Of a stretch of 64,000 nt of DNA, positions 38,098 through 54,482 are shown one piece after another. Position 1 is the stretch's first letter. Each line of letters opens with the position of its first letter. The stretch is from an uncultured Sphingomonadaceae bacterium (lineage in GTDB: Bacteria; Pseudomonadota; Alphaproteobacteria; Sphingomonadales; Sphingomonadaceae), in assembly GCA_946479505.1 (NCBI GenBank), contig CAMLGC010000007.1, positions 9,086-73,085 of the forward strand. The letters run 5' to 3'. The position numbers and the translations under genes were made by a program. The notes under the pieces were generated by a model. It had not been told where the DNA came from. It made no database searches and saw only the letters and a program-made list of their open reading frames with translations.

Positions 38098-38934
38098 TCA
38101 TCGGCCGCCCATGCCGCGCGTTCGCGTCGCCGTGCGCAAGCAGTCGCCGACAAATATCAGGGACTGCTCGAGATGCCTTCGCCAATAAGCCCAATCGTGC
38201 CCGCCGGGCTGCTCCAGATAGGCATGCGCAATCCCGGCCGCGTCGAGCGCAGCATGGAGGCGGCGGTTGGCATCGAGGAAAATATCTTCTCGACCACAAT
38301 CGAAGCGGATCGGTGGTAACGGCGCCTCAGCGCGCGTCATCGCCGCGAGCACGCTCGTGTCCTCGGATGCCGCGCTCCAGCCTGCGCGCGTCTCCTCGAT
38401 AAGGGCGTCGAGCTGGCTCGCCTCGGTGATTGACGAATGTGCCGCGACAGCCGCGAGGCGATCGGGATATTTGCCGGCCAGGCGCAGCGCGGCGAAGCCG
38501 CCCATGCTCAGCCCGATGATGGCCAGCGGCGCGTCCGGTCCGCAGGCGGAACAAGCCTCGATCGTGGCCGCGGGCACCTCATCGACGATCCAGCGCTCGA
38601 AATCGCGGTCCGCATGCGGCACGTAACCCGATCCGTCGCCCGCGAGCCCGTCTGACGGCATCGCCAGCACCAACGGCGGGATGTCGCCCGCAGCGATCAG
38701 GCGCTGCGCGGTGACATGCGCCGCCCCCTTCAACGCCCACGCCCAGTGCGAACCGTACACGCCGTGGAGCAGCATCACGATGGGAAGCGGGCGGGCCGTC
38801 GTTTCGGCTTCGGGTGGGGCGTAGAGCGTGATATCGGCGCGGCCACCCAGCGCGGCGCTCTTGACGGTCAGAAAGCGCAGCCCCTCCGTCGTGATGTCAG
38901 GGTCCGATTGCTCGATCGTGCGGAAGACGTTCAT
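38098..38934 (-). CDS. Alpha/beta-hydrolase esterase (esterase D-like)
   Basis: 278 residues, no signal peptide, from the ATG that overlaps the alcohol dehydrogenase stop as ATGA. Nucleophile elbow IIGLSMGGFAALRLAG, oxyanion region PIVMLLHGVYGSHWAW, and terminal histidine QPGGHDWAYWRRHL complete a Ser-Asp-His triad typical of PF00756-type esterases. Last gene of a four-gene operon (oxygenase, amylase, dehydrogenase, esterase). An S-formylglutathione hydrolase role is possible but its partner dehydrogenase is not obviously class III. Confidence 0.85.
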   Translation of the reverse strand: MNVFRTIEQSDPDITTEGLRFLTVKSAALGGRADITLYAPPEAETTARPLPIVMLLHGVYGSHWAWALKGAAHVTAQRLIAAGDIPPLVLAMPSDGLAGDGSGYVPHADRDFERWIVDEVPAATIEACSACGPDAPLAIIGLSMGGFAALRLAGKYPDRLAAVAAHSSITEASQLDALIEETRAGWSAASEDTSVLAAMTRAEAPLPPIRFDCGREDIFLDANRRLHAALDAAGIAHAYLEQPGGHDWAYWRRHLEQSLIFVGDCLRTATRTRGMGGR

Positions 38935-40043
38935 GGGATCGCGAACACGCCCTTGGCGCTGCGGCCGTTCAGCATGTTGTCGAACGCGAGCTCGGCGCTG
39001 GCGAGCGGATAGGTGTGCGTGATCAGGCTGCCGATCTCGAGCGCGCCGGTCGCGATCCAATCGAACAGCCGCGGGAAATCGCGCGTGGGCACGCAGCCGC
39101 CGTAGAGTGGCGTCAGATACCGTTTGTTCCAGAAGAAGTCGGGCATCGAGACGCGCACGTCGCCGTGTGCGCCGCTCACCTGCACCGCATTGCCGCCGTT
39201 GCGCGCAAGCTTGAGCGGCAGGAACGACAGCGGCCAGACGCCGGTCGCCTCGAACGCGTGGTCCGCGCCGCGGCCTCCGGTCAGCGCTCGCACCGCGTCA
39301 ACGAGGCGTTGGTGATCGGCGTCGTCACCCTCGACGAGGACGCCGTCGGTTGCGCCGAAGGCGCGCGCGCGGTCGATTCCAGCCTGACGGCGGTCGATCG
39401 CAATGATCGTCCGGGCGCCGGCGAGCCGCGCGCCCTGGATGACGTTGAGCCCGACCCCGCCGCACCCGACCACCGCGACGGTCTCGCCCGGCTGAACGGC
39501 GGCGACGTTCACCACCGAGCCGACCCCGGTCATCACCGCGCAGCCGAGGATGCAGGCGAGCTCGGGCACGAGGTCGGGCGGGAGCGGTGTCACCGCCTCG
39601 GCGCGCACGAGCGTGTAGCGTGCGAAGGTGCCGAGGTGGAACGACCGCTCGATCGGCGTGCCGCGCCAGCGGGTGCCACCGGCATGCGCGCGGCTGGTGC
39701 CGAGCGTTTCGGGCGACAGCTCATGCGTTCGTTCGCAAAGCGCGTCGCCCTCGCGTGCGCATTGGAAGCATTGGCCGCACGGGATCGCCCAATTGAGCAG
39801 CACCGGCTGACCGGGCGTTATATGGCCGACCCCGTCGCCGACCGATTCAACGATCCCTGCACCTTCGTGCCCCATCACGAGCGGCCCCGGCCAGGTGAGC
39901 GAGGCATGATCGGTGTGGCACAACCCAGCCGCGGTCACGCGCACGCGCACCTCGCCGGGCTCGGGCGCCTCGACCGCGATCTCGTCGAGCATGAAACCGC
40001 CCGTGCCGTCAGCGATCAGCGCCGGTCCGGTGAGCGTCGTCAT
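38931..40043 (-). CDS. Zinc-dependent alcohol dehydrogenase
   Basis: 370 residues, medium-chain dehydrogenase family. Catalytic zinc ligands C42 (GLCHTDH) and H59-E60 (MGHEGAG), structural zinc cysteines in CGQCFQCAREGDALC, the NAD Rossmann motif VVGCGGVGLNVIQGARLAGA and the sugar-ring aspartate in IIAIDRR. It overlaps the amylase stop as ATGA. Substrate unknown; the operon context suggests an alcohol or aldehyde arising from glycoside breakdown. Confidence 0.9.
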   Translation of the reverse strand: MTTLTGPALIADGTGGFMLDEIAVEAPEPGEVRVRVTAAGLCHTDHASLTWPGPLVMGHEGAGIVESVGDGVGHITPGQPVLLNWAIPCGQCFQCAREGDALCERTHELSPETLGTSRAHAGGTRWRGTPIERSFHLGTFARYTLVRAEAVTPLPPDLVPELACILGCAVMTGVGSVVNVAAVQPGETVAVVGCGGVGLNVIQGARLAGARTIIAIDRRQAGIDRARAFGATDGVLVEGDDADHQRLVDAVRALTGGRGADHAFEATGVWPLSFLPLKLARNGGNAVQVSGAHGDVRVSMPDFFWNKRYLTPLYGGCVPTRDFPRLFDWIATGALEIGSLITHTYPLASAELAFDNMLNGRSAKGVFAIP

Positions 40044-41617
40044 GGGCGGCCGAGCAACGCGGTCTGGTAGGGTGCGAGCATCACCGCGCCGCCCTCGCCA
40101 CCCGCGGTGCCGAGCAGGTCGACCGGCGCTATGCTATCGTCCGGCCGATACGACGCCGGAGCATCGGTGAGATTGCTCACGATCAGGAACCGTTCGTCGC
40201 CCATCGCGCGCTCGACCACCAGCATGCCTTCGGGCGCGTCGAGTACGCGCTCGCTGCCGTGGCGGAAGGCGTCGTGCGCCGCGCGCAGGTCGAGCAGCCG
40301 CTCGTAGAGCGAGAGCAGGGAGGTGGGGTCGCCGGCTTCCTCCTGGACAGAGACGCCGTCGTCGGCACGCGCAAAGTGGTCGGTCCAGTAGCTCTTGGTG
40401 CTGCGATACCAGTTGGCGTGGATGGCTGCGTCCGGATCGGCTTTCCACTGGAAGGCCTCGCGCGTGCCGATGTCCTTCTCATCGGTTTTGTATTCGGGCC
40501 GCTGCGCGCCGAGCATGCCCAGTTCCTCGCCGTAATAGATGAGCGGCGTGCCCTTGAGCAGCGTCGTCAGCACCGCAGCGGTGCGGAGCTGTTCCGGCGT
40601 GATGCCGGGCTCGGAGGCGAGCCGGTTGGTGTCGTGATTGGCGGCGAAGAGGAGCTGGTGCTTGCCCGGCGGGGTCGCCTCGGCGGTGCCCGCGATCGCC
40701 GTGGCGATCTTGGCCGCATCGAAATCTCGGATCGCGCCCATCAGCGGAAAGGCGAAGACGTAGTCGACATCGCCCTCGGTCAGATACTTGGTGCCGTAGC
40801 CCCAATGCGCCTGCTCGGCGATGAAGGTCACGTCCGGGTTGGTCGCGCGCACCTTGGCGAAGATCGGCTTCCAGAAATCATCGAACAGGTTCGTCAGGAT
40901 ATGCTTGTCGTCGAGATCGTCCATCATGTGGTCGAGCCGGAAGCCGTCGACGCCGTCGCTGAAATCGCCATCATGGTTCGGATCGACCCAATCGACGAAG
41001 AAGCGCTGGAAATAGGCCTTGAGCGCGGGCGAGTTCATGTTGACGGTGGTGATCCCGGTCTCACCGTCCGGGAAGCGCGGCGCGATCGTGATGCCGAACG
41101 GGCCTTCCTCGGGCTTGGTGTTTCCGGGCCCGTGCCAGATCAGGAAATCGCTATAGGGCGAATCCGGATGGCCGAGCGCGGAAGTGAACCAGGCATGCCC
41201 GTAGGAGACATATTGGATCTCCTGATCGAGATAGATTTTCATGCCGCGTTCGTGGATCGCCGAAACGAGCCGATGATAATCGGCCATCGTCCCGAATTCC
41301 GGATCGATTCCTTCGAAATCGTCGGCGAAATAATTGTGGTAGAATTCGGATGGGTAGAGCGGCGTCAGCAGGATCGAGGTGACGCCGAGCCGCTGGAGAT
41401 AGTCGAGGCTGTCGATGATCCCCTGAAGATCCCCCTCGCCGTCGCCGTTGCTGTCGCGCATCGAACGGGTGAAAATCTGGTAGAAGACCTCGTCCGCGGG
41501 CGTGGCAGGTGCTGCGGCAACGGCAACCGGCGGCCGGGAGGTGACCGCCGGCGCCGTCGCGCACGAGGCGAGCGTCGCGGCGAGCGCGACGCCCAGCACG
41601 CAGGAAACACCCCTCAC
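40040..41617 (-). CDS. Lipoprotein alpha-amylase family enzyme (GH13)
   Basis: 525 residues from a GTG at 41617 that overlaps the oxygenase stop as GTGA. The lipobox TLASC places the lipidated cysteine at residue 19, followed by a Pro/Ala-rich spacer, so the enzyme is membrane-anchored, probably periplasmic or surface. GH13 barrel from residue ~43 (DEVFYQIFTRSMRDSNGDGE). Catalytic residues: nucleophile D229 (DGFRLDH), acid/base E268 (FIAEQ), transition-state D329 (AANHDT). It should cleave alpha-glucosidic bonds before uptake. Confidence 0.9.
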   Translation of the reverse strand: MRGVSCVLGVALAATLASCATAPAVTSRPPVAVAAAPATPADEVFYQIFTRSMRDSNGDGEGDLQGIIDSLDYLQRLGVTSILLTPLYPSEFYHNYFADDFEGIDPEFGTMADYHRLVSAIHERGMKIYLDQEIQYVSYGHAWFTSALGHPDSPYSDFLIWHGPGNTKPEEGPFGITIAPRFPDGETGITTVNMNSPALKAYFQRFFVDWVDPNHDGDFSDGVDGFRLDHMMDDLDDKHILTNLFDDFWKPIFAKVRATNPDVTFIAEQAHWGYGTKYLTEGDVDYVFAFPLMGAIRDFDAAKIATAIAGTAEATPPGKHQLLFAANHDTNRLASEPGITPEQLRTAAVLTTLLKGTPLIYYGEELGMLGAQRPEYKTDEKDIGTREAFQWKADPDAAIHANWYRSTKSYWTDHFARADDGVSVQEEAGDPTSLLSLYERLLDLRAAHDAFRHGSERVLDAPEGMLVVERAMGDERFLIVSNLTDAPASYRPDDSIAPVDLLGTAGGEGGAVMLAPYQTALLGRP

Positions 41618-42528
41618 GCCGCGAACCGCGCGACGTCGGGGGTCCGTTCCCACGGAATGGCGCGCGCGTTCTCGGCCATCGCCGGCAGCACCGCGTCGAC
41701 GCGCGCCCGCAGTTCGGGCGTCCAGTCGAGCGGGGTCAGCGGGCGCTCGGGCGTGACGATATCGTCGTTGCGCATATAGCCCATCATCGCGCGCGCCTGC
41801 ATGCCCGGCGACATCGTGCCCCAATGCGGCATGTACCAGAGCGTGAGCAGCGGCCGTTCGTGCGCGGTCGCGTTGCCGTAGGCGCTGTGGATCAGCCGCG
41901 CGTCGCCGACGAGCACATCCCCGGCTTTCACCGGCACTGCCACCTCGTCGGGATGCGATGCGAAGGCGGGGTTGTCGGGGTTGAGGAAGCCCTGAAGCTC
42001 GGACGAATGCGCCGCCTCGAGATGGTGGAGCGGGTGATCGCTCCGGTGCGTGCCCGGGATGACGCGCAGGCAGCCGTTCTCGGGCGTGGTGTCGGTGAGA
42101 TAGATCATCGCGAACCATTGCTGCGGCCGCGCCTCGTAGCTCTCGGGCTCGGTCCAGCCCCACCAATCCTGATGCCAGAAGAGCGGCGGGCCGCCCGCGG
42201 GCTTGGAGATGAGGAATCCGCCCGTCCAGCGCGGATCGCTCGCACCGAGCCCGCGCAACATGTCGATCAGTCCCTGGTGGCCGATGATGTCGGCGAATTC
42301 GGGGCTGTCGCTCAGATGGCACAGCGAGCCGTTCGACTTCACCTTCTCGCGCGCTTCGGCGCTCTCGCGGAATAGCCGCGCATGCGCGCGCAGCAGCAGC
42401 GTGTCGATCAGCCCCGGATCGAGCAGGCCGGGGATGCGGACGAAGCCGTCGCGATCGAGCGCTTCGGCGGCGGTGGAGGCTTCCCCGGTGGGGCGCGCTG
42501 CGGTGGCTGTGGTCATCATGAGCGTCAT
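41614..42528 (-). CDS. PhyH-family 2-oxoglutarate/Fe(II) dioxygenase
   Basis: 304 residues; ATG 42528 or the next in-frame ATGs (no clear ribosome site). Metal-binding H119 and D121 in FWHQDWWGW, the distal histidine in VGDARLIHSAYGN, and the 2-oxoglutarate arginine expected in HERPLLTLWYM. Also the PhyH hallmark ENGCLRVIPGTHRSD. It would hydroxylate an organic substrate in the cytoplasm. It heads an operon with a GH13 lipoprotein, an alcohol dehydrogenase and an esterase, an unusual partnership whose substrate I cannot name. Confidence 0.88.
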   Translation of the reverse strand: MTLMMTTATAARPTGEASTAAEALDRDGFVRIPGLLDPGLIDTLLLRAHARLFRESAEAREKVKSNGSLCHLSDSPEFADIIGHQGLIDMLRGLGASDPRWTGGFLISKPAGGPPLFWHQDWWGWTEPESYEARPQQWFAMIYLTDTTPENGCLRVIPGTHRSDHPLHHLEAAHSSELQGFLNPDNPAFASHPDEVAVPVKAGDVLVGDARLIHSAYGNATAHERPLLTLWYMPHWGTMSPGMQARAMMGYMRNDDIVTPERPLTPLDWTPELRARVDAVLPAMAENARAIPWERTPDVARFAA

Positions 42529-42582
42529 TGTAACGGGCGTCGGGGCGCAGCACAGCCGCGCACAATGTTGCGGTCGAGCTCA

Positions 42583-42592
42583 AAAACTATCG
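42583..42592 (-). promoter_or_regulatory. Shared upstream element, copy 1 (PhyH operon)
   Basis: CGATAGTTTT on the minus strand, 55-64 bases before the oxygenase start. The same ten bases occur before the TonB receptor, and with one change (TGATAGTTTT) before the MFS gene. A likely regulator- or polymerase-binding element. Confidence 0.5.
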
Positions 42593-42621
42593 TGTAATTG
42601 CTCAATTGGCCATGCGCATGC

Positions 42622-44022
42622 TCAGCTCGTCGAACGAGGTTTGGCGGGAACCGGGCGGACGCGCAGCCAACAAAGCGCAGACAGGAACAGGAAGCCGCCG
42701 CCGAGCAGAAATATCAGGCCCTTGTCATCGGCGCCGACAAGAAGCGGCCCCACCGCGAAGCTTGCGACGAGCTGCGGCAGCACCACCGCAAGGTTGAATA
42801 GCCCCATGAAGAGCCCGAGCCGCGCGCCCTCGACGCGCTCGGTCATGATCGCAAACGGCAAGCTGACGATCGCGCCCCAACCGATGCCGGCGAGTGCCAT
42901 CAGCGCGAACAGAGCGCCCTGCGTATCGGCGAAAAGTCCGATCGCAGCGAAGGCGGCGGCCATCACCAGCACCGCTGCGGCGTGAACATGGACCTGGCGA
43001 AAGCGCGTCGTGAGCGGCGCGAGCAACAGCGCGGGCGCGATCGCCGCAACGCCATTGAGCGCCAGATAGGCGAGCGCGACGGTGCGGCCGAGCGCCGCGT
43101 CGTCGAGCCCGGGAAGCCGCCCCTGCACGAACGCCACGAGATAGATGAAGAGCGACTGCACGCCGACCCAGCTCAGGGCGTGCGCGGCGATCACGCGCCG
43201 GAACGGATCGCCCGAGATCAGCGCATGGGCGATCAGCAGCGCGGTGGCGAGCGCGCAGGCGAGTTCGGGCACCCCTACCGCCGGCGTCGCGCCGAGCAGG
43301 CGCGCAGCCATCGCATAGACGTCATAGACGAGCAGCGCCGCAAGCGGCGAAAGCGAGGCGAAGGCGGCGATCGTCGGCGCCACGCGTTCGGTCTCGACGG
43401 TGCGCGGGGATGCGCGGGGTTCCTCGATGAGGAGGGCGGGTCCAATCGATAGTACCAGCACGATTCCGACGCCGGCATAGATCAGCGTCTCGTTGCCGAA
43501 AAGCGCGCCGATCGCATAGGCGAGCACGCCGAAACCGCCCGATACCGTCTGCATCCAGCCATAGCCGCGCGCGCGCTCGGCGCCGTCGGGCGTCACGTCG
43601 GCGATGATCGCGCGGGTGGGATTGAAGCTGACGTTGATCGCGAGATCGAGCGCGAGCGCGACGGTTATCGCGACGCCGATTACGCTTTCGAGCCCCAGCG
43701 CGGCCGAGATCGCGCCGATTTCGGGCAGCGCGAGCAGCATCAACGCGGCGGTGATCCCGCCGACGATGATGAAAACGCGTCGTCGGCCGTTCCACACCCA
43801 GACGCGGTCGCTGATGAGCCCGACCGCGACCTGCCCCAGGATGCCGGCGATCGGCCCGGCCGCCCAGATCAGCCCGATCGCTTCGACGTCGAGGTTGTAG
43901 CGCGTCGCGAGAATCCAGCTCAGCGCGGAAATCTGCACCGACAGCGCGAACCCCATCGCGGTCGCGGGCAGGCTGAGCAGGGCGAAGAAGCCGCGCGTCC
44001 GGCGGCGTTGAATGTCGAGCAT
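42622..44022 (-). CDS. MFS transporter, glycoside/sucrose-type
   Basis: 466 residues from ATG 44022, with GGGAGAGG just upstream. About twelve hydrophobic helices. The loop-2 motif GLISDRVWVWNGRRRVFIIV and early ALSVQISALSWILATRYNLD resemble the sucrose/maltose-type (SLC45-like) proton symporters of sphingomonads and caulobacters. It should import the disaccharide delivered by the TonB receptor. Transcribed away from the AraC regulator across an 87-bp region that holds the shared YGATAGTTTT element. Confidence 0.88.
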   Translation of the reverse strand: MLDIQRRRTRGFFALLSLPATAMGFALSVQISALSWILATRYNLDVEAIGLIWAAGPIAGILGQVAVGLISDRVWVWNGRRRVFIIVGGITAALMLLALPEIGAISAALGLESVIGVAITVALALDLAINVSFNPTRAIIADVTPDGAERARGYGWMQTVSGGFGVLAYAIGALFGNETLIYAGVGIVLVLSIGPALLIEEPRASPRTVETERVAPTIAAFASLSPLAALLVYDVYAMAARLLGATPAVGVPELACALATALLIAHALISGDPFRRVIAAHALSWVGVQSLFIYLVAFVQGRLPGLDDAALGRTVALAYLALNGVAAIAPALLLAPLTTRFRQVHVHAAAVLVMAAAFAAIGLFADTQGALFALMALAGIGWGAIVSLPFAIMTERVEGARLGLFMGLFNLAVVLPQLVASFAVGPLLVGADDKGLIFLLGGGFLFLSALCWLRVRPVPAKPRSTS

Positions 44023-44087
44023 GCCTCTCCCGTCGCGGAGCGTCCGCGAGGCCAGAGAGCCCGGCGGCGGGGTTGCGCGCAAACGAA

Positions 44088-44097
44088 AAAACTATCA
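44088..44097 (-). promoter_or_regulatory. Shared upstream element, copy 2 (MFS/AraC intergenic)
   Basis: TGATAGTTTT on the minus strand, 66-75 bases before the MFS start and 13-22 bases before the AraC start on the plus strand, so binding there could both control the transporter and repress the regulator gene. Confidence 0.5.
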
Positions 44098-44109
44098 TGC
44101 GCTTGATGT

Positions 44110-44958
44110 ATGGCGCTTCGCCCCATCTGCGAACCGATCGAGTTGCCGCTCGGCGCGTCGGTACTCGTCGAACATGTCGAGCATCCCGCCGGCTCGCCCG
44201 AATTGGGCCGCCTGCTCCATTTCCACGACGTGAGCGAGCTGGTGCTGTTCGAAACGGTCGAGGGCGCGTTCCTCGCCGATGGCCGTCGACATCCGGTAAG
44301 CACGCGGACGATCGTGTTCGCGCCGTCGATGCGCCACCACGATTACGAACTCGCGCCGGGCGCCAAGAAGTGGACGCTCGTCCAGATCGATCCCTATATT
44401 GTCGAGCAACTCGCGCTGCAGCCGGCGCTTGCGCGGCTGACGCGGCCCTTCTGCGCCGGCGCCGATGCGCCGCTGTGGCAGCGAATGGAGACGCTCGCGC
44501 GCTGGCTGCACGACGCCGCCGCCATCGATCCGCACGATCCGGTGGTGACCCGGATTGTCGAGCTGTTGCTCGTCGCTGCGGCGTCGGCGCCGGAGGTGGA
44601 GAGCGCGGCCGCGGACGACGACGCGGCGCATGTCGAGCGCCTGCTGCCCGCCGTCGAGCGGTTGAGGCTCGATCCGGCCGCGTCGGTGCCGCTCGATGAC
44701 GCAGCGGCGATGTGCAACCTCTCGCCCGCGTATTTCTCGCGCCGGTTCAAGAGCGTGTTCGGAATGAACTTCAGCGATTATACCCGCGCCTATCGCCTGC
44801 ACCTTGCGGCGCGGCGCATCCTGACGACGGGCGCTGCGGTCTCTGAAATCGCTTATGGGCTCGGCTTTTCGAGTCCGTCGCACTTCACCGCGCGCTTTCA
44901 CGAGCGCTTCGGGATGACACCGCGCGCCTATCGGCGGAGTGCCCGTCGCCGAGCATGA
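44110..44958 (+). CDS. AraC-family transcriptional regulator
   Basis: 282 residues. N-terminal cupin sensor domain (RLLHFHDVSELVLFETVEGA, ending ~155), then two helix-turn-helix motifs at the C-terminus: DDAAAMCNLSPAYFSRRFKS, and VSEIAYGLGFSSPSHFTARF with FGMTPRAYRR. It is the leading candidate to bind the YGATAGTTTT elements. The start lacks a clear ribosome site. Its end is 7 bases from the end of the convergent esterase gene. Confidence 0.9.
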   Translation: MALRPICEPIELPLGASVLVEHVEHPAGSPELGRLLHFHDVSELVLFETVEGAFLADGRRHPVSTRTIVFAPSMRHHDYELAPGAKKWTLVQIDPYIVEQLALQPALARLTRPFCAGADAPLWQRMETLARWLHDAAAIDPHDPVVTRIVELLLVAAASAPEVESAAADDDAAHVERLLPAVERLRLDPAASVPLDDAAAMCNLSPAYFSRRFKSVFGMNFSDYTRAYRLHLAARRILTTGAAVSEIAYGLGFSSPSHFTARFHERFGMTPRAYRRSARRRA

Positions 44959-44965
44959 CGCGCGC

Positions 44966-45898
44966 TCAGCGGTTGCCGAGCAGGAAGGCGACCGGCTGAT
45001 CGAGCCGCGCGCGCCACGATTGTTCGTTGTGCGCGGCGCCGGGAAAGACCTTGCTCATCCAGTCGCGCCCCCGCGTCCAGCCACGCGCCGCGACCGCCGC
45101 ATCGACTTGCTCCTGGAGCGGCGCATACAGCCGGTCGAGCGTCTGGTCGCCATGATCGAACCAGAGCCGGTGGGTGCCGGGCGCGGGCAGTGCATCGCGA
45201 ACATAGCCGGCGAATGCCGCCCCGATCGCCTCGACATCGGACTGAGGCAGCATCTCGCCGTCGGGCGGCAGGAACAGTGCCCAATGCGACGACAGGCACC
45301 CCGCCGCGCCGAACACGTCGGGATATTCGGCGAGCGCGTAGAGCGAGATCAGCCCGCCCATGCTCGACCCCATGATAGCGGTGCTCTCCGGCCCGCGCGC
45401 GACGTTGTAGCGGGCGTCGATATACGGCTTGAGCTCGGTGACGATGAAACGGAGATACGCGTCGGAAAGGGGAGGGCCCTGGTAGAGCGCCTCGACGCGC
45501 TCGCGCTGATCGTCGGGCAATCGCGCGAACACCTTGGCGGGCATGTATTCGCGCAGCCGCTTGGGCGTGTTCCAGATCCCGACGACGATCGTGCGTCGCG
45601 CCTTGCCCTCGGCCATGAGCCGCGTGAGCGTTTCGTCCACCCCCCATTCGTGGCCGCCATAAGCGCCGCGGTCGCGAAAGAGGTTCTGCCCGTCATGCAT
45701 GTAGAGCACGGCATAGGGCGCCCCTTGGGGGTCATAGTCCGCCGGAAGCCACACGGTCACGTTGCGCGCATCGACATAGTGCGAGGGAAAGCCGGTGAAC
45801 TGATCGAGTCGCCCCGGATCGGCCGGCGATTGCGCCAGCGCGGGGCTGCAAACCAACGTCAGGAGCGCGGCAAGCACGAGAGCAATTCGGGACAGCAT
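44966..45898 (-). CDS. Secreted esterase (PF00756-type alpha/beta hydrolase)
   Basis: 310 residues. Signal peptide 1-22 (LAALLTLVCSPALAQ). AVLYMHDGQNLF, nucleophile IMGSSMGGLISLYALAEYPD and C-terminal FPGAAHNEQSWRARL with the histidine give a complete triad. The ribosome site CAGGAG lies 10-15 bases before the ATG. Related periplasmic enzymes include feruloyl/acetyl-xylan-type and siderophore esterases; in this sugar cluster a deacylase of decorated glycosides is plausible. Divergent from the LacI gene. Confidence 0.88.
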   Translation of the reverse strand: MLSRIALVLAALLTLVCSPALAQSPADPGRLDQFTGFPSHYVDARNVTVWLPADYDPQGAPYAVLYMHDGQNLFRDRGAYGGHEWGVDETLTRLMAEGKARRTIVVGIWNTPKRLREYMPAKVFARLPDDQRERVEALYQGPPLSDAYLRFIVTELKPYIDARYNVARGPESTAIMGSSMGGLISLYALAEYPDVFGAAGCLSSHWALFLPPDGEMLPQSDVEAIGAAFAGYVRDALPAPGTHRLWFDHGDQTLDRLYAPLQEQVDAAVAARGWTRGRDWMSKVFPGAAHNEQSWRARLDQPVAFLLGNR

Positions 45899-45962
45899 GA
45901 CAGTGACTCCTGGGGAGAATCGGCTAAAGAGAGGCTATGAAAGAATTTGCAGAGGACCGTTG

Positions 45963-46979
45963 GTGACCGGAGGAGGCGTTACGCGACTCGAGGATCTGGC
46001 GCGAATCGCCGGGGTGTCGATTGCCACGGTCAGCCGAGCGCTCAACGACAGCAGCCTGGTCAACACCGAAACCAAACGCCACGTCTGGAAGCTCGCGCGC
46101 GAGCACGGCTATCGCTTCCGTCGACATATGCCGTCGGGGCCGATCGGAGCCGAGGCGACGATCGCGGTCGTGATGACGCGCCCGCAGGGGCGCGCCGATC
46201 AGTTGACCGATCCCTTCATCCTCGAACTGGTGGGCGGAATCGGCGACGCGGCACGCGAGCGCGGCTGTGATTTTCTGGTAAGCCATGTCGAGCCTTCCAC
46301 GTACCAGGACCTTTCCGCGCTGATGGCCACCAACCGCGCGGACGGCATTATTTTTCTGGGACAGAGCTCGCTGGTCACCGAATTCAACCAGCTCGCAATG
46401 GAGGAAAGCCGATTCGTCGTCTGGGGCGCGGCGTTTCCGGACCAGCGCTATTGCTCGGTCGGCAGTGACAATCTGCGCGGCGGAAGGCGCGCAACCGCGC
46501 ATCTCGCCCGGCTCGGGCGGCGGCGGATCGCCTTCCTTGGCGACATTGAGGCGCCCGAGGTCGTCCAGCGCTATCAGGGCTACGTTCAGGCGCTCGAGGA
46601 AGCGGGTCTGCCGCTCGATCCCGCGCTCGTCGTGCCCGCGCATTTCGAGGTCGAGTCCGCCGAGGCGGCGATCGATGCGCTGATCGCACGACGCGTCGAG
46701 GTCGACGGCATCGTCGCGGCGTCGGACATGATCGCGCTGGGCGCGATCCGATCGCTGCTTCGCGCCGGACGCGCTGTGCCCGGAGACGTATCGGTCATCG
46801 GCTATGACGACGTCCAGTTCGCGCGCTACAGCCACCCGGCGCTCACCACGATCGCGCAGGACACTGCCAAGGCGGGGCGGCTGCTCGTCTCGAAGCTGCT
46901 GAGCTCGGGCGGAGACGAGGATATCCCATCGGAACGCGTGCCGACCGACCTGATCGTCCGCGAATCGTGCGGCGGCTGA
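45963..46979 (+). CDS. LacI-family transcriptional regulator
   Basis: 338 residues from the GTG at 45963, chosen because AGAGGA lies 6 bases upstream and the product then has the family's normal length. Helix-turn-helix TRLEDLARIAGVSIATVSRA at residues 7-26 with hinge YRFRRHM; periplasmic-binding-protein-like sensor domain with DGIIFLGQSS, DGIVAASDMIALGAIRSLL and ISVIGYDDV-like SVIGYDDVQFARY. It likely represses the adjacent glucosidase and TonB receptor until a sugar binds. Confidence 0.94.
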   Translation: MTGGGVTRLEDLARIAGVSIATVSRALNDSSLVNTETKRHVWKLAREHGYRFRRHMPSGPIGAEATIAVVMTRPQGRADQLTDPFILELVGGIGDAARERGCDFLVSHVEPSTYQDLSALMATNRADGIIFLGQSSLVTEFNQLAMEESRFVVWGAAFPDQRYCSVGSDNLRGGRRATAHLARLGRRRIAFLGDIEAPEVVQRYQGYVQALEEAGLPLDPALVVPAHFEVESAEAAIDALIARRVEVDGIVAASDMIALGAIRSLLRAGRAVPGDVSVIGYDDVQFARYSHPALTTIAQDTAKAGRLLVSKLLSSGGDEDIPSERVPTDLIVRESCGG

Positions 46980-46989
46980 CGCCGCCGCA

Positions 46990-48642
46990 TCACACCCGCG
47001 CGACGTAGCCGGCGAGCGCGGGAAGCAATGCCGGGGCGGCCGTATTCGCCCAGGCATCCTCCGTCGCCTCGATCACGCGCCAAGCTCCCTCCGGCGGTGC
47101 CCAGTCGCAGGCCGCGTGTCCGAGATTGAAGACGCACAGCAACCGCTCGCCACCGCCCTCACGCATGAAAGCAAGGACGGGCTCGGGCGCTTCGAGAAAG
47201 GTCAGTGTGCCGGATCTGAACGCCGCATGCGCCTGGCGCAGGGCGATCATCCGGCGTGCAAAGGTCAATGTGGACGCGGGATCCCCTTCCTGGCGATCGA
47301 CCGAAAGCTCGTCATGTAGCGGATCCAGCGGGAGCCAGAGCTCGCCGGGTGCGGCAATCTCGGAGAAACCGGCGTGCGCCGCGCCGCGCGTCCAGGGCAT
47401 CGGCGTGCGCGCGCCGTCGCGCCCCAAGGTCGCCGGCCAGTTGACGATCGCATCGGGATCCTGAAGCTTCTCGAACGGGACGTTCGCCGTTGGCAGCCCG
47501 AGCTCCTCGCCCTGATAGACAAAGGCGTTTCCGCGCAAGCTCATCAGCAGCATCAGCGTCATCCGAGCGAGCCGCTTGGCGTCGCGGTTTTGCGCCCAGC
47601 GGCTGATGTGGCGGGGCGCATCATGGTTCGAAAAGGCCCAGCTCGGCCACCCCTCACCTTTGTCGCCCGACCATCTCCCAAGTGCCTGCCGCACCGTCGC
47701 GGGCTCAAGCGCATCGGCATAGAGGAATGTGAAACCGTAGGCGGTGTGGAGCAACGCGTCGCCGACGGTGAACGCCTTCATTTCGCGCTCCGCCTCGGGT
47801 CCACCGATCTCGGCAACGGTGAAGCGCGCGTCGTAGCGGTCGAGCAAGGCGCGCAGCCGGCCGAGAAATTTGGGGATGTCGGCATGCGACTGGTTGTAGA
47901 CGTGCTGTTGATAGTCGAACGAGCGCGTGCGTGGGCCGTCGTCGATCGCGGGCGGGTTGTCGCGCAGCTCGGGGTCGTGCATCGCGAAGTTGATGGCGTC
48001 CAGGCGGAAGCCGTCGACTCCCCGATCCAACCAAAAGCGCGCGACATCGAGCAGCGCATCCTGCACCGCCGGATTGTGGACGTTGAGGTCGGGCTGGCTG
48101 CCCAGGAAGTTGTGCAAATAATACTGGCCGCGGCGCGGGTCGAAGGCCCACGCGCTGCCGCCGAATACCGACTGCCAATTGTTGGGCGGGGCGCCGTCGG
48201 GGCGGGGGTCCACCCAGACGTACCAATCGGCTTTTGGATTGGTGCGGTTGCTGCGGCTCTCGGCGAACCAGCCATGCTGGTCCGAGGTATGCGAATAGAC
48301 CTGATCGATCACGACCCTGAGGCCGAGCGCATGTGCGCGAGCGACCAGCGCATCGAAATCGGAAAGGGTCCCGAAGATCGGATCGACATCACGATAATCG
48401 GCGACGTCGTAGCCGAAATCCTTCATCGGTGAGGTGAAGAATGGCGACAGCCAGATCGCGTCAACCCCCAATGAAGCCACATGATCGAGGCGCGCGGTAA
48501 TTCCCGGAAGGTCGCCGATCCCGTCGCCGTTCGAATCAGCAAAGCTGCGCGGATAGATCTGATAGATCACCGCGCCCTTCCACCACGGCACGGTGTCAGC
48601 CTGCGGATTCACGCCCGGTTTGAGTTGCTCGAGAATCTGCAC
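46990..48642 (-). CDS. Cytoplasmic alpha-glucosidase (GH13, oligo-1,6-glucosidase type)
   Basis: 550 residues from a GTG at 48642 with AGGAGG 5-10 bases upstream; a longer frame upstream is non-coding. No signal peptide. GH13 barrel from WWKGAVIYQIYPRSFADSNG. Nucleophile D215 (GFRLDAINF), acid/base E278 (FTVAEIGG), transition-state D341 (FSNHDAPR). Matches alpha-glucosidases that split short alpha-glucosides in the cytoplasm. Its 3' end faces that of the LacI gene at 10 bases. Confidence 0.92.
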   Translation of the reverse strand: MQILEQLKPGVNPQADTVPWWKGAVIYQIYPRSFADSNGDGIGDLPGITARLDHVASLGVDAIWLSPFFTSPMKDFGYDVADYRDVDPIFGTLSDFDALVARAHALGLRVVIDQVYSHTSDQHGWFAESRSNRTNPKADWYVWVDPRPDGAPPNNWQSVFGGSAWAFDPRRGQYYLHNFLGSQPDLNVHNPAVQDALLDVARFWLDRGVDGFRLDAINFAMHDPELRDNPPAIDDGPRTRSFDYQQHVYNQSHADIPKFLGRLRALLDRYDARFTVAEIGGPEAEREMKAFTVGDALLHTAYGFTFLYADALEPATVRQALGRWSGDKGEGWPSWAFSNHDAPRHISRWAQNRDAKRLARMTLMLLMSLRGNAFVYQGEELGLPTANVPFEKLQDPDAIVNWPATLGRDGARTPMPWTRGAAHAGFSEIAAPGELWLPLDPLHDELSVDRQEGDPASTLTFARRMIALRQAHAAFRSGTLTFLEAPEPVLAFMREGGGERLLCVFNLGHAACDWAPPEGAWRVIEATEDAWANTAAPALLPALAGYVARV

Positions 48643-48730
48643 GTCCCCTCCTGATCGCTTGGCGCCACGACACGGCGGACGGAGGCTTGCAGCCGCCGTC
48701 TTGCGTTCTCCTAGCCGATTCGCCGTAATT

Positions 48731-48744
48731 TGCAAACATTTACA
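48731..48744. promoter_or_regulatory. LacI-family operator candidate
   Basis: TGCAAACATTTACA is a near-palindrome fitting the LacI pattern TGnAAn-CG-nTTnCA, with CA in place of the central CG. It lies 89 bases before the glucosidase start on one side and 267 bases before the TonB receptor on the other; a lacI gene is adjacent to the glucosidase. Confidence 0.5.
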
Positions 48745-48897
48745 TACGGAAAAGCGACCGGGCAGCGTATGGTGCAATTGGGAATAAGACCGTTTAGTGA
48801 ACGGAAAAACATAGAAAAATACGTGCGTATGGGGGGTGGCGATTCGCTCGGAAATTCTCCGACTGCGACCGCTGAGAATTAGCGCTTGTAAAATATG

Positions 48898-48907
48898 CGA
48901 TAGTTTT
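48898..48907 (+). promoter_or_regulatory. Shared upstream element, copy 3 (TonB receptor)
   Basis: CGATAGTTTT on the plus strand, 104-113 bases before the receptor start and identical to copy 1 upstream of the PhyH operon. Confidence 0.5.
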
Positions 48908-49010
48908 GCAATCTTTTGCGGTCGCCGCTGGCGCTCGCGCATACAATCGCGCGAGCGCCAGCAGGCGGAAGGGCCAGCGCATCCGACGCCGGTACGAAGG
49001 AGGGGAGAAC

Positions 49011-51899
49011 ATGGTGAGATCACATCGCTCGGCGCGGAGCGCCCTGATGCTGGGGAGCGCGGGCATCGCGCTGCTTCTGGGCATGGGCGCGAGCCCGGCC
49101 TTCGCGCAGGTCGCGGACGAGCAAAATTCGAATCAGGCGGGCGCGCAGCCCGCCGGCGACTCATCTGAAGATCCCACCGACAAGCCCGCTGCGCCGCAGG
49201 AGGACGAAACCGGCGGCGACATCGTCGTTCAAGGCTTCCGCGCCAGCGTCCTCGATTCGATCCAGGCCAAGCGCGACGCGCCGATCATCGTCGACGTGGT
49301 TTCGGCCGAGGATATTGCCGGTCTGCCGGACGCCTCTATCGCCGACGCGATCGCGCGGCTGCCGGGCGTCACCTCGCAGCGCGGCGGCGGTCAGGCAAGC
49401 GCGATCAACATCCGCGGCCTCAACCAGGACCTGGTGTCGGCAACGCTCAACGGCCGCGAACAGGTCGCGACCAGCGGCCTGCGCACGATCGAGTTCGATC
49501 AATATCCCTCCGAGCTGCTGTATCAGGCCGCGGTCTACAAATCGCCGATGGCCTCGCAGATCGAGGGCGGCATCGCCGGCAAGGTCGAGCTCAAGACGGC
49601 GCGACCGCTCGATTCGTCAGAAGATTTCTCAGCCTCGCTCAACGTCCGCGGCAGCTACAACGATCGGGCGCACCAGCAGCCCGATGCAGACGAATTCGGC
49701 TATCGCGTCTCGGGCGCGGTTCAGGCCAAGCTGCTTCACGACACGCTGGGCATCGCGCTCGGCTACGCACGCCTCGTCCAGCCTAATGTCGCAACGCGCT
49801 TCAACGGCTATGATTACGTGCTGACGGGCAATGCCGGCGGCGGCAATCCGACCGATCTCAACGGCAATGGCGTCCAGGACGCGATCAGCTACGGCATGGA
49901 GGTCAACCAATTCGGCGGCACCGAGACGCGCGACGGTGCGCTGGGCGTCATTCAGTTCGAGCCGAGTCCGAGCACACGCCTCCTCATCGACGGCTATTGG
50001 TCGCGCTTCACCTCGGACGTGCGCCGCCGCGGCGTGCGCTTCGCGGGCGAGCAGAACGGCAACACGGCGACGGGCACGCTCACCGATCCGGTACTGTCGG
50101 GGGATGCGATCACCGGAGGCCACTGGCAGAGCGGTAACGGCGTCGATTTCGAATCGGTCAACCAGGACGAGAGCGACCGCGACCGGCTCTATACGATCGG
50201 CGGAAACTTCCAGCAGGATTTCGGCGACAATCTGACGCTGAGCCTCGACGCGAGCTATTCGACCGCGAACAGCTATTTCTACAATTCGGGCATCAACGTG
50301 AACACGTATTTGCCCGACGGGAGTGGCGGCTATGTCCGCGCGAATACCGTGCCGGGCGCACTCCAGCTCGATTATGTGCTGCACGGGCTCGATTTGCCCG
50401 ACATCAACTTCAACTATGATTTCACGGATCCCGAGCTCAATCGCTTCCAAGGCTTCTACATCGTTCCGCAGGAAGACAATGACCAGATGTGGGCCTATGC
50501 GGGCGATCTGACCTGGCGGGTGGATGGAGGTTTCATCAAGTCGCTCCAGGCGGGCGGGCGCTATTCGACCCGGCGTGCCGACCGCGTCGTCACGACCTTC
50601 AACGCGTTCGGCATTGCTGCGCCCGTCGCGCTGCCTGACGGTTCGTATGAGCTCGCCGGCTTCGAGGGCGACTATGCCGATCACGGCTTTCCCGATTTTC
50701 TCTCGGTCGATATCGACGCGGTGCTCGATCAGTTCGTCGGGCCCGATCGCGAGGCGCGGCAGGATTATCCTTTCCTCGGCTTCACCTACGATCAGAGCTT
50801 CACGATCCGCGAGAAGGTGTGGGCGGGCTACGGCCAGCTCAATTTCGACACGATCGCGGGCGGGCTGAACTTCTCGGGCAATATCGGCGTCCGCGTGGTA
50901 CATACCGACCAGAGCTCGACCTCTTCGCTGACCGACCCGACCTCGGCCACCGGTGAGCGATACGTTTCGACGTTCGGCGACAAATACTGGACGATTCTGC
51001 CGTCGGCGAACTTCATCCTCGACCTGTCACGGCAGGATCGGTTGCGGATGAGTGTCTCGCGGCAGATGTCGCGCGCGCGCTTCTTCGATTTGCGCAACTC
51101 GATCACGTTCGGGCTCACGGATATCGGTGGCGGCGTCTATCAGCCGCGCGGCGGCGGCGGCAATCCGACGTTGCGGCCTTATCTCGCGAAGCAGTTCGAC
51201 TTCGATTATGAACATTATTTCGGCTCGACCGGGTTGTTTCAGGTCGGCGTGTTCTACAAATGGCTCGAAAGCTTCGTCACAGGCGGTACGATCTACGATT
51301 TCGATTTCCGCGCGGCCGGGCTCACCTATCCGCCGCTGCCCACCGATGCACCGCCGGGGGCCACCGCGCTCGACATCGGCCAGCTCAGCGCACCAATCAA
51401 TGGCGACGGCGGCGATGTTTACGGCATCGAGGCGCAGTTCACGAAAACCTTCCCGTCGCTTCCCGCACCATTCGATGGCCTCGGCGTAATCCTCAATTAC
51501 GCCTATACGGAGAGCAGTCTCCAGGTGAAAAGCCCGGCCTCCGGTCAGGTTTTCACGCTGCCGCTGATCGGGCTGTCCAAACACGTCTTCAACCCAACGG
51601 TTTTCTACGAGAAGAACGGTTTTTCGGGTCGCGTGGGGGTTCGGTATCGCTCCGGCTATGTCGCCTCGCATTTCGGCTTCGGCGAGCAGATCACAGGCAA
51701 TGCGCCCGAGACCGTGGTTGACGCACAGCTCTCCTACGCATTCCAGAAGAGCAGCGCGCTCGACGGGGTGACGCTTTACCTCCAGGGCAACAACCTCACC
51801 GACGCGCCGACGCGTGCCTATTTCGGGCAGCACGCGCAGACTAACCTGCTCCAGCAGTTCGGACGCGTCTTCTATGCAGGTGCGACGATCAAGTTCTGA
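49011..51899 (+). CDS. TonB-dependent receptor (carbohydrate type)
   Basis: 962 residues from ATG 49011, with a strong GAAGGAGGGGAG upstream. Signal peptide 1-32 (MGASPAFAQ), acidic/proline linker, plug domain (DIVVQGFRASVLDSIQAKRD, DASIADAIARLPGVTSQRGG, INIRGLNQDLVSATLNGREQ) and a 22-strand barrel ending in a C-terminal phenylalanine (YAGATIKF). It belongs to the Xanthomonas/Caulobacter sugar-receptor group. It should bring oligosaccharides across the outer membrane using TonB energy. LacI-type and YGATAGTTTT sites lie upstream, a strong hairpin downstream. Confidence 0.96.
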   Translation: MVRSHRSARSALMLGSAGIALLLGMGASPAFAQVADEQNSNQAGAQPAGDSSEDPTDKPAAPQEDETGGDIVVQGFRASVLDSIQAKRDAPIIVDVVSAEDIAGLPDASIADAIARLPGVTSQRGGGQASAINIRGLNQDLVSATLNGREQVATSGLRTIEFDQYPSELLYQAAVYKSPMASQIEGGIAGKVELKTARPLDSSEDFSASLNVRGSYNDRAHQQPDADEFGYRVSGAVQAKLLHDTLGIALGYARLVQPNVATRFNGYDYVLTGNAGGGNPTDLNGNGVQDAISYGMEVNQFGGTETRDGALGVIQFEPSPSTRLLIDGYWSRFTSDVRRRGVRFAGEQNGNTATGTLTDPVLSGDAITGGHWQSGNGVDFESVNQDESDRDRLYTIGGNFQQDFGDNLTLSLDASYSTANSYFYNSGINVNTYLPDGSGGYVRANTVPGALQLDYVLHGLDLPDINFNYDFTDPELNRFQGFYIVPQEDNDQMWAYAGDLTWRVDGGFIKSLQAGGRYSTRRADRVVTTFNAFGIAAPVALPDGSYELAGFEGDYADHGFPDFLSVDIDAVLDQFVGPDREARQDYPFLGFTYDQSFTIREKVWAGYGQLNFDTIAGGLNFSGNIGVRVVHTDQSSTSSLTDPTSATGERYVSTFGDKYWTILPSANFILDLSRQDRLRMSVSRQMSRARFFDLRNSITFGLTDIGGGVYQPRGGGGNPTLRPYLAKQFDFDYEHYFGSTGLFQVGVFYKWLESFVTGGTIYDFDFRAAGLTYPPLPTDAPPGATALDIGQLSAPINGDGGDVYGIEAQFTKTFPSLPAPFDGLGVILNYAYTESSLQVKSPASGQVFTLPLIGLSKHVFNPTVFYEKNGFSGRVGVRYRSGYVASHFGFGEQITGNAPETVVDAQLSYAFQKSSALDGVTLYLQGNNLTDAPTRAYFGQHAQTNLLQQFGRVFYAGATIKF

Positions 51900-52020: not shown

Positions 52021-52779
52021 GTGAATCGGTTCGACGGATTGGAGAGGCTCGATCGCCGCGCGCTGATGCGGCACGCGCTGCTTTTGGTCGGCGGCGCGGC
52101 CGTGCCGTTCCCGCGAACGGCCTTCGCTGAGAAGGGTGCCTCCTGGTTCGAGCCGGCGCAACTCGACGTGGTGGCGGCCTATGCCGACACGCTGATCCCC
52201 GAGACCGGCACGCCCGGCGCGATCGGCGCGGGCGTGCCGCGCGCGATCGATGCGATGATGCGCGACTGGGCGTCGGACAAGACCCGGGCCGAGTTCGCCT
52301 CGGTGCTCGAGGCGCTCGACGCCGCCGCACGCAAGGCGGACGGGCAGGGGCTCGCCGCGTTGGCGCCCGAACGTCGAAAGGCAGTGGTCGTCGCCTTCGA
52401 CGCTGCGCAGATTGCGGCGCAGGAAGCCGCGGCTGCGCCCGAGCACCGCGCCGAGGAGGCGAAGGCGGTGCCCTCGGGTGGGAAGCCCGAGGCCACCGAT
52501 GCCGATCGGATCGCTTCGGGCAAGGCGCTCGATCAACAGGAAAAGAGCTCGGCGGGCGCTCGGCTCACTGAAGGGCCGCCGGCAAAGAAAACCGATGCCC
52601 CGGCCGCCGACCCGGTGGCGACGCTTGCCGGGCCATATATCAGGCTCAAGGATCTCGTGCTTACCACCTATTATCTCTCCGAACCCGGCGCGACGCAGGA
52701 GCTGCGATACGAGCTCATCCCCGGCGTATGGGAAGCCTCGATGCCATTGGACGAAGACCGGAGGGCATGGGCGGTATGA
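52021..52779 (+). CDS. Gluconate 2-dehydrogenase subunit 3-like protein (Tat-exported small subunit of the GMC dehydrogenase)
   Basis: 252 residues from a GTG at 52021 with GGGAGAG upstream. N-terminal Tat-like signal (LDRRALMRHALLLVGGAA) with cleavage after TAFA. Family landmarks: LDVVAAYADTLIPETGTPGA early, and LVLTTYYLSEPGATQELRYE late. Between them, residues ~131-200 are a highly charged Ala/Glu/Lys/Pro-rich stretch that looks like an insertion. Such subunits carry their GMC partner through the Tat pathway and stabilise it. The stop overlaps the GMC start as ATGA. Confidence 0.88.
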   Translation: MNRFDGLERLDRRALMRHALLLVGGAAVPFPRTAFAEKGASWFEPAQLDVVAAYADTLIPETGTPGAIGAGVPRAIDAMMRDWASDKTRAEFASVLEALDAAARKADGQGLAALAPERRKAVVVAFDAAQIAAQEAAAAPEHRAEEAKAVPSGGKPEATDADRIASGKALDQQEKSSAGARLTEGPPAKKTDAPAADPVATLAGPYIRLKDLVLTTYYLSEPGATQELRYELIPGVWEASMPLDEDRRAWAV

Positions 52780-54482
52780 TGCAGGCAAAGAGCAATCCTA
52801 CCTTCGACGCGATCGTCGTCGGGTCGGGTATGAGCGGCGGCTGGGCAGCGAAGGAGCTCGCCGAACGCGGGCTCAAGGTGCTCGTGATCGAGCGCGGCCG
52901 CCATGTCGAGCACGGCGCCGACTACACCGATACGCAGCGCCCCTGGGAAGACAAGAACTGGGGCCGCGTCAACGAGGACGAGATCGAACGCGACTATTAC
53001 GTCCAGAGCCGCTGCTATGCCTTCGGCACCCCGACCAAGCACTGGTGGGTCAACGATCGCGAGAACCCCTACACCACGCCCGAGGACCGTCCGTTCGCGT
53101 GGATTCGCGGCTACCATCTCGGCGGTCGCTCGCTGATGTGGGGGCGCCAGACCTATCGCCTGAGCGAGATGGACCTCTCCGCCAATGCCGCTGATGGCCA
53201 CGGCGTCGATTGGCCGATCCGTTATGCCGATCTCGCGCCGTGGTACGATCATGTCGAAACCTTCGCGGGGATATCGGGCCAGACAGAGGGGCTCGCGCAG
53301 CTTCCCGACGGCAAGTTCCTGCCGCCGATGGAGCTCACCTCGATCGAGAAGGACTTCAAGGCCAAGCTCGCCGCAGAACATCCGACACGCCGGATGACGA
53401 ACGGCCGGTGCGCGCACCTCACCCAGCCCACCGAGACGCAGCAGAATCTCGGTCGCACTCAGTGCCAATATCGCTCGATGTGCGAACGCGGCTGCTCGTT
53501 CGGCGCCTATTTCTCGAGCCTCAGCGCGACCTTGCCCGCGGCGATGGCGACGGGCAACGTCACCGTGCTCACCGACGCGATCGTCGAAAGCGTGGTCCAT
53601 GATCCGAAGACCGGCCGGGCGACCGGCGTGCGCGTCATCGATCAGAACACCAAGCAGGGCAGCGTCCACGAAGCGCGAATCGTCTTCCTGAACGCGTCGA
53701 CGATCGGCACCGCGCAGATCCTGCTCAATTCGACGTCGGAGGCATTCCCGACCGGCCTCGCCAACCGCTCGGATGCGGTCGGTCGCTATCTGATCGACCA
53801 CATGACGGGGCTTGGCGCGATCGGGACCTATCCCGGTTTCGAGGACATGTACTATCGCGGGCGGCGGCCCAATGGCTTCTACATTGCGCGTTACCGCAAC
53901 GTCAGCGAGCCCGCCGACGGCTATATCCGCGGCTATGCCTATCAGGGCGGCAGCTTCCGCAATGCCTGGCGCCGCGGCGTCGGCGAGGCGGGAGTCGGCA
54001 CCGAGTTCAAGGCGCGGCTCCGCGAACCCGGTTCCTGGTCGATGTGGCTGAGCGGTTTCGGCGAGATGCTGCCGCGCCCCGACAACCGCGTCACGCTCGG
54101 CAAGGAACGCGACGGGTGGGGCATTCCCATTGTTCACATCGATTGCACGCTCGGCGACAACGACCACCAGATGATGAAGCAGATCAACGCCGACGCGAAG
54201 GAAATGCTCGAGATGGCGGGCTGCACCGACATCGTCGTCTATCCCGGCGATCGCAATATCGGCCTCGGCGTCCACGAAATGGGCACGGCCCGCATGGGGC
54301 GCGATCCGGCCACCTCGGTGCTCAACGGGTTCAACCAGGCGCACGACGTGCCGAACCTGTTCGTCACCGACGGCGCGTGTATGGCGTCGTCGGGCTGCCA
54401 GAATCCGTCGCTCACCTATATGGCGATCACCGCGCGCGCAGCGCATCACGCGGTGGAGTTTCTACGCGAAGGTAAGGTGTAA
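52776..54482 (+). CDS. GMC oxidoreductase, sugar (probably glucoside 3-) dehydrogenase catalytic subunit
   Basis: 568 residues from ATG 52776. No signal of its own, so it is probably exported bound to the Tat subunit encoded upstream. FAD motif DAIVVGSGMSGGWAAKELAE, GYHLGGRSLMWGRQTYR, the active-site pair H500 (VHEMGTARMG) and N543 (GCQNPSLTYM). Cysteines C230, C236 and C240 in TQCQYRSMCERGCSFG are spaced much like the [3Fe-4S] ligands of FAD-glucose dehydrogenases and glucoside 3-dehydrogenase. It should oxidise a sugar in the periplasm and pass electrons out via the cluster, perhaps to the pseudoazurin encoded next. Confidence 0.9.
   Translation: MMQAKSNPTFDAIVVGSGMSGGWAAKELAERGLKVLVIERGRHVEHGADYTDTQRPWEDKNWGRVNEDEIERDYYVQSRCYAFGTPTKHWWVNDRENPYTTPEDRPFAWIRGYHLGGRSLMWGRQTYRLSEMDLSANAADGHGVDWPIRYADLAPWYDHVETFAGISGQTEGLAQLPDGKFLPPMELTSIEKDFKAKLAAEHPTRRMTNGRCAHLTQPTETQQNLGRTQCQYRSMCERGCSFGAYFSSLSATLPAAMATGNVTVLTDAIVESVVHDPKTGRATGVRVIDQNTKQGSVHEARIVFLNASTIGTAQILLNSTSEAFPTGLANRSDAVGRYLIDHMTGLGAIGTYPGFEDMYYRGRRPNGFYIARYRNVSEPADGYIRGYAYQGGSFRNAWRRGVGEAGVGTEFKARLREPGSWSMWLSGFGEMLPRPDNRVTLGKERDGWGIPIVHIDCTLGDNDHQMMKQINADAKEMLEMAGCTDIVVYPGDRNIGLGVHEMGTARMGRDPATSVLNGFNQAHDVPNLFVTDGACMASSGCQNPSLTYMAITARAAHHAVEFLREGKV

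Follow-up and report, generated by a model that had tools for sequence, protein, structure and literature searches.

Genes and repeated decamers at the locus

A 64-kb stretch of DNA from an uncultured Sphingomonadaceae bacterium (the window) carries a gene cluster in which a 10-base element, YGATAGTTTT, recurs upstream of three transcription units. The gene set comprises a PhyH-family dioxygenase (PF05721), two GH13 enzymes, an MFS transporter, an AraC-family regulator, two esterases, a LacI-family regulator and a TonB-dependent receptor (Table 1). The genes for PhyH, GH13 enzyme a, an alcohol dehydrogenase (ADH) and an esterase (42528 to 38098, minus strand) either overlap or follow closely on one another in the list of open reading frames (ORFs), so that the first copy of the element, CGATAGTTTT at 42583–42592 on the minus strand (site A), precedes an apparent four-gene operon. 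The second copy, TGATAGTTTT, lies in the divergent region between the MFS and AraC genes (site B), and the third, again CGATAGTTTT, lies before the receptor gene (site C). The 64 kb hold no exact match beyond these three, and 100 dinucleotide shuffles gave 0.01 on average and never more than 1.

An earlier note on this DNA had given the position, strand and letters of all three copies exactly, and its statement that they lie 55–113 bases before gene starts agrees with the gaps of 54 nt (A to the PhyH ATG), 65 nt (B to the MFS ATG) and 103 nt (C to the receptor ATG). Absent from that note is the point that the AraC gene starts divergently from the MFS gene, at an ATG (44110) only 12 nt from site B. 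The protein encoded there has the C-terminal double helix-turn-helix of the AraC/XylS family.

Table 1. Coordinates and strands of genes and predicted control elements in the window
Feature	Position	Strand	Remarks
Esterase (alpha/beta-hydrolase) paired with ADH	38098–38982	−	start assumed
Zn alcohol dehydrogenase (ADH)	38931–40043	−	best PDB matches FoADH/ZoADH (8h2a, 8h2b)
GH13 (alpha-amylase family) enzyme a	40040–41611	−	start assumed
PhyH-family Fe/2-oxoglutarate dioxygenase	41614–42528	−	PF05721, 2.6e-25; HxD...H...R present
Predicted −10 hexamer of site A, TACAAT	42527–42532	−	59 nt downstream of the G of GATAG
Site A operator	42557–42591	−	GATAGTTTT (42591–42583) and second half-site AACAT at offset 22 (42569–42565); upstream of the PhyH-GH13-ADH-esterase operon
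MFS transporter	42622–44022	−	
Site B, TGATAGTTTT	44088–44097	−	MFS/AraC divergent region
AraC-family regulator	44110–44958	+	Pfam HTH_18 2.8e-24, HTH_AraC 6.4e-19
LacI-family regulator	45897–46979	+	
GH13 alpha-glucosidase b	46990–48645	−	
Site C, CGATAGTTTT	48898–48907	+	before receptor; second half-site and −10 spacing absent; not conserved
Direct repeat TTTGCAATCTTTTGC overlapping site C	48905–48919	+	also before receptors of six relatives
TonB-dependent receptor	49011–51899	+	

Operator and promoter geometry of site A

A scan of genome contigs for the regulator gave 11 loci, five with clear AraC relatives; L006–L011, with weak or partial matches, were dropped. Later additions (L045, L046, L047, L056 and L057, then L078–L080) brought the AraC loci to 14, window included. 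The AraC alignment was taken without the row of L046, which was misframed. Identity to the window protein is 75% in Hephaestia caeni, 68–69% in two Altererythrobacter and one Pelagerythrobacter, and 43% in a Henriciella metagenome-assembled genome (L005). In the first four of these (L001–L004), GATAGTTTW is present at both the A and the B position, the A form being GATAGTTTA, with a final A, and in the Henriciella locus two copies flank the AraC gene.

The sites before operons have a common architecture, consisting of RAYAGTTTW, a RAYAG-like second half-site 22 bp on, and a TANNNT −10 starting 59 bp on. In 12 of 13 promoter-type sites, the distance from the first base of RAYAG to the start of TANNNT is exactly 59 nt, the misfit being the site before the cytochrome P450 (P450) gene of Henriciella. 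When near-copies were removed, the A sites of L002–L004 being taken as one set and three ADH sites as another, offset 59 was common to eight of the nine representatives, a number not reached in any of 20 000 shuffles (maximum 4). The RAYAG repeat peaks at offset 22, with a mean of 4.0 of 5 matches compared with 2.8 for the next best offset, and this too was equalled in 0 of 20 000 shuffles.

Three loci (L078, L079 and L080) were fetched after the geometry had been derived, as a test. Each has a single RAYAGTTTW in 19–20 kb, directly before an operon of PhyH-B (a PhyH type described below), ADH, esterase and GH13 genes, and the geometry held in all three, with GACAG, GACAG or GATAG at +22 and TATCCT, TAGCTT or TATGCT at +59. 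Because these promoters share homology with that of L056 (PhyH-B 78–86% identical), the three loci test the persistence of the geometry rather than a separate origin. The site of L046, first chosen by eye, proved by mechanical scan to be the sole RAYAGTTTW of that 17-kb locus. A final scan of the 14 loci gave one extra promoter-type site outside the 13, GACAGTTTT before GH13b in L005, which lacks a −10. The updated tally is 15 of 17 promoter-type sites fitting, in 11 of the 14 AraC loci, with both misfits in L005.

Class-II activators of the AraC/XylS family, such as AraC at araBAD and XylS, use direct half-sites in tandem, which are spaced by about two helical turns and end beside the −35. 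This layout, with half-sites adjoining the −35 and a fixed distance to the −10, was found at site A and not at B or C. Site A differs from the araBAD and XylS cases in its half-site (RAYAG), its 22-bp period, its poor −35 match (CTGTGC) and its pathway. No consensus sigma-70 promoter was found in a scan of 42300–44300, which fits an activator-dependent promoter but is not evidence for one. The predicted −10 of site A overlaps the ATG of the longest PhyH ORF (42528), which makes one of the ATG pair at 42519 and 42516 (within 42514–42528) the probable true start, and the PhyH transcript, read from the sequence, is probably near-leaderless with either start. We conclude that site A is a real operator with a defined architecture, and its geometry is as expected for a class-II AraC activator, which is predicted to bind there.

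Occurrence of the regulator and the operator in related genomes

The regulator is rare, its gene being present in 5/396 genomes of the order, 6/397 of the family, 1/385 of the class and 1/105 of the Henriciella family; the figures for two genera are 2/26 and 3/101. All these draws, from which the later loci came, overlap and include the centre genomes. The genome scan recommended in the earlier note was run in five relatives (G001–G005, 3.2–4.5 Mb) and found YGATAGTTTW 5, 4, 5, 5 and 9 times, two copies in each genome lying at the AraC locus. With 4–9 copies per genome, the idea that GATAGTTTT is a common or random element was rejected. The reversed pattern occurred 6, 1, 0, 1 and 12 times and was thus commoner in G001 (6 versus 5) and G005 (12 versus 9), so that the evidence lies in position and not in raw count. 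Among the 28 places in the five genomes, a −10 at +59 was seen only in four, the A-type sites of G001–G004.

The ADH-esterase pair lies apart from AraC in G002, G003 and G004, yet is preceded by its own GACAGTTTT...GACAG...TAGTCT. In G003, GACAGTTTTY occurs genome-wide only at the ADH-esterase copy, and among its five places in three genomes a −10 at +59 was seen only in the two that belong to the module. A look-alike site shared by G002, G003 and G004 (L015, L029 and L023) has no −10 at +59; it was rejected as a regulon member and is assumed to be a coding-region match.

Site B and the AraC promoter

Site B overlaps TATCAT (44093–44098, plus strand), the likely −10 of the AraC gene, 11 nt before its ATG. 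In L001 the complement of site B is likewise TATCAT, at the same distance of 11 nt from the AraC ATG; L002–L004 have TATCAC, 12 nt before theirs. Looking downstream in the direction of the MFS gene (in L005, of the PfkB gene), no TANNNT was found at offsets 20–84 in any of six B-type sites, three of them near-identical. The simplest reading of these sequences is that site B is more likely to serve autoregulation than activation of the transporter. In L056, L078 and L080, the AraC gene is the last of the operon, placed after GH13a and on its strand, an arrangement that would provide positive feedback. A palindrome, TTGCGCGCAA, lies beside site B at 44073–44082, is kept in L001 and reads TTGTGCGCAA in L002 and L004; it is possibly the site of a second regulator.

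The oxygenase slot and its partners

The position held by PhyH in the window operon is occupied by different oxygenases in different loci. PhyH-A is found in the window and L001–L004, PhyH-B in L045, L056, L057 and L078–L080, a third PhyH in L045, and a P450 in L005, L046 and L047. The HxD...H...R motif was aligned in all six PhyH proteins compared. In PDB searches with the P450s of L005 and L047, the first match was 6g5o (1e-99 and 6e-106), the next being at 1.5e-34 and 5e-33; 6g5o we take to be the Zobellia enzyme, no printed identification having been found. The window ADH matched 8h2a (6e-109) and 8h2b (2e-100) well ahead of the next chain (1.5e-53). ADH orthologues (E up to 1e-110, scores being for the best candidates per genome only) were found in 2 of the 396 genomes of the order, both of them AraC-positive.

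Plasmid searches with the P450 (limit 1e-60) and the ADH (1e-90) each returned the same two records. In Microscilla pSD15 (Bacteroidota), genes for an esterase, ADH, AraC, P450, 2Fe-2S protein/ferredoxin and FAD oxidoreductase are contiguous, with AraC between ADH and P450, and in the gamma-proteobacterial Catenovulum pCadTS8_2 the esterase, ADH and AraC genes are contiguous with the P450 and its partners elsewhere. The Catenovulum AraC is 30% identical over nearly its full length; that of Microscilla aligns in the DNA-binding domain only. A half-site-like ATAGTTTAT is present in both intergenic regions around the Microscilla AraC gene (L072 11398–11589 and 12442–12616); as this DNA is AT-rich and holds other matches, ATAGTTTAT was left out of the count. 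The half-site was not found in the Catenovulum ADH/AraC intergenic region.

These partners recall the 6-O-methyl-D-galactose cluster of the marine Bacteroidota Formosa and Zobellia. Its ADHs are FoADH and ZoADH (8h2a, which is FoADH, and 8h2b), and PMC10033563 describes genes for a P450, redox partners, an esterase and the ADH as neighbours. The glycosidases named in that paper are of GH2 and GH16, whereas the window and most sphingomonad loci seen have GH13. The window shares with that cluster the 8h2a/8h2b-type ADH and the adjacent esterase, and L005 and L047 share a P450 with 6g5o as best PDB match. Where the Bacteroidota cluster has P450, ferredoxin and reductase, the window operon has PhyH instead; L005, L046 and L047 have the P450. 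According to PMC10033563, an ADH knockout has a growth defect on 6-O-methylgalactose. O-demethylation by PhyH has a chemical precedent in the 2'-O-methyl nucleoside demethylases of the PHYHD1/FJS type, one of them from Sphingomonas, which belong to the same Pfam family (PF05721) and for which PMC12709175 describes 2-oxoglutarate-dependent ribose O-demethylation with proposed release of formaldehyde. PHYHD1 (2opw) is only remotely similar to the window PhyH (E 8e-5), and the window operon is glycan-related. Among the publications listed by literature searches, none linked PhyH to methyl-glycan catabolism or glycan use, or dealt with alpha-glucan demethylation.

By this analogy, the module of oxygenase, ADH, esterase and AraC resembles the Bacteroidota cluster for oxidative sugar demethylation with PhyH in the position of P450, and probably acts in O-demethylation. 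The cluster thus looks more specific than the label of 'sugar cluster' given in the earlier note. A further proposal is that P450 has given way, as the sugar O-demethylase of an AraC-controlled methyl-glycan module, to PhyH dioxygenases of at least three distinct lineages, the oxygenase being interchangeable and the regulator, ADH and esterase staying the same. We hold this to be evenly balanced between true and false.

Together with the AraC/GH13/oxygenase module, genes of GH92, an alpha-mannosidase family, are present in L047 (5058–7292, by Pfam) and, with 63–66% identity, in L046 (8958–11039), L057 (3631–5718) and L045 (15055–15999), hinting at an alpha-mannose-containing substrate in these four loci. 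Downstream of the window receptor (52728–54482) lie a GMC oxidoreductase gene, then a small cupredoxin-like ORF and a Gfo/Idh-like ORF, the GMC protein alone having been scanned; this group may be a sugar-oxidation branch.

Proposed mechanism and alternatives

We infer that site A holds a tandem AraC-type operator, of which GATAGTTTT is the half-site farther from the promoter. A dimer of the adjacent AraC-family protein would occupy both half-sites, with the proximal subunit placed against the −35 region, and switch on the PhyH-GH13-ADH-esterase operon in the manner of a class-II activator. Site B would be a related site that covers the −10 of AraC itself and serves autoregulation, and site C would lie outside the regulon, its TTTT falling within a separate repeat that governs the receptor. 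The GH13 enzymes would free a sugar that the PhyH dioxygenase demethylates, with ADH and esterase in an auxiliary step. Taken whole, this is the explanation we favour with considerable confidence.

Several observations weigh against it. The naming of AraC as the binder of site A comes from linkage. In L005 RAYAGTTTW occurs three times (before P450, before GH13b and between the AraC and PfkB genes), with TANNNT at +59 in none, and in L047 and L057 (AraC 37–38% identical) exact RAYAGTTTW occurs only without a −10; in L047 one such copy adjoins the AraC start. One-mismatch operator candidates that do have a −10 at +59 lie just before MFS genes in L047 (12291, minus strand) and L057 (2045, plus strand); they were left out of the count, being near the level expected by chance, and may be degenerate operators or chance matches. 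The three test loci do not count as fully independent, given the mutual homology of the PhyH-B promoters and the closeness of L078 to L056. Three of the five AraC-positive genomes in the 396-genome draw lack the ADH at the threshold used, and the PhyH proteins have no close characterised relative, the best PDB match being SnoK at 1e-10. Lastly, PMC10033563 assigns FoADH and ZoADH no role in formaldehyde detoxification, so that even the model cluster gives no guide to the ADH step.

The alternative that survives best accepts the operator and gives the operon a function other than sugar O-demethylation, for example hydroxylation of an aglycone followed by oxidation of the product by ADH. PhyH enzymes catalyse many reactions, the window PhyH is nearest in PDB to SnoK and ectoine hydroxylase, and FoADH and ZoADH prefer aromatic aldehydes (PMC10033563). 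We nevertheless consider such a function rather unlikely, as the window ADH groups with those of the 6-O-methylgalactose cluster, the AraC gene stands beside ADH and esterase genes on both the gamma-proteobacterial and the Bacteroidota plasmid, and P450s fill the oxygenase slot in three loci, the two compared with PDB having 6g5o as best match.

The earlier note had joined all three sites in one regulon under the adjacent AraC protein. An AraC-linked operator stands, A and B being kept near AraC orthologues and A having the tandem half-sites and the −10 spacing; the transporter part does not, given the lack of a −10 downstream of B-type sites and the overlap of B with TATCAT before AraC. The inclusion of all three sites was rejected because site C fails in both geometry and conservation. 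It has no RAYAG at +22 and no −10 at +59, with TACAAT at +43 instead, about half a helical turn off either expected spacing. The comparison of relatives' loci that the earlier note had proposed bears out A and B and goes against C, for RAYAGTTTW is absent from the promoters of three receptor orthologues (L001, 78% identical; L059/L056, 66%; L081/L078, 65%) and of three more distant receptors (about 34%) of closely related genomes (L048, L049 and L058). All six have instead TTTGC-N4..6-TTTGC (period 10–11; L001 14267, L048 5464, L049 4737, L058 10741, L059 5918, L081 319 and 500); the window copy of this repeat starts within site C, at 48905. Site C therefore probably belongs to another control element outside the AraC regulon, the TTTGC repeat being a candidate that is probably the operator of the linked or nearby LacI regulator. 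Chance would nonetheless hardly account for an exact 10-mer in a 365-bp receptor promoter (expectation 0.01 for the whole window), and the receptor would be a plausible partner of the pathway, so that a single regulon with site C as a lineage-specific recruitment of the receptor retains a small probability.

A reading of GATAGTTTT as a promoter element in its own right (a −10 or an alternative sigma box) is very improbable: GATAGT and TAGTTT are −10-like and site B has no TANNNT downstream, but the variants starting with GAC and AAC are unlike a −10, and the operon sites have a strictly spaced second −10 at 59 bp and a half-site repeat at 22 bp.

Possible implications for methyl-sugar catabolism

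With the favoured explanation, what began as a short repeat is now an operator and promoter defined precisely enough to be tested. Searches with the operator can pick up other pathway members whose genes lie dispersed, the ADH-esterase pair of three genomes being an example. The most interesting part of the result is the enzyme swap under one regulator, which suggests that sugars can lose their methyl groups by a second enzymatic route, one without P450. If the swap is true, the module lacks the NADH-consuming P450 and keeps ADH and esterase, whose essential role would then not be the supply of NADH to the P450. For an ADH that, according to PMC10033563, is needed for growth on 6-O-methylgalactose yet does not act in formaldehyde detoxification, an ADH/esterase module without P450 narrows the possible roles.

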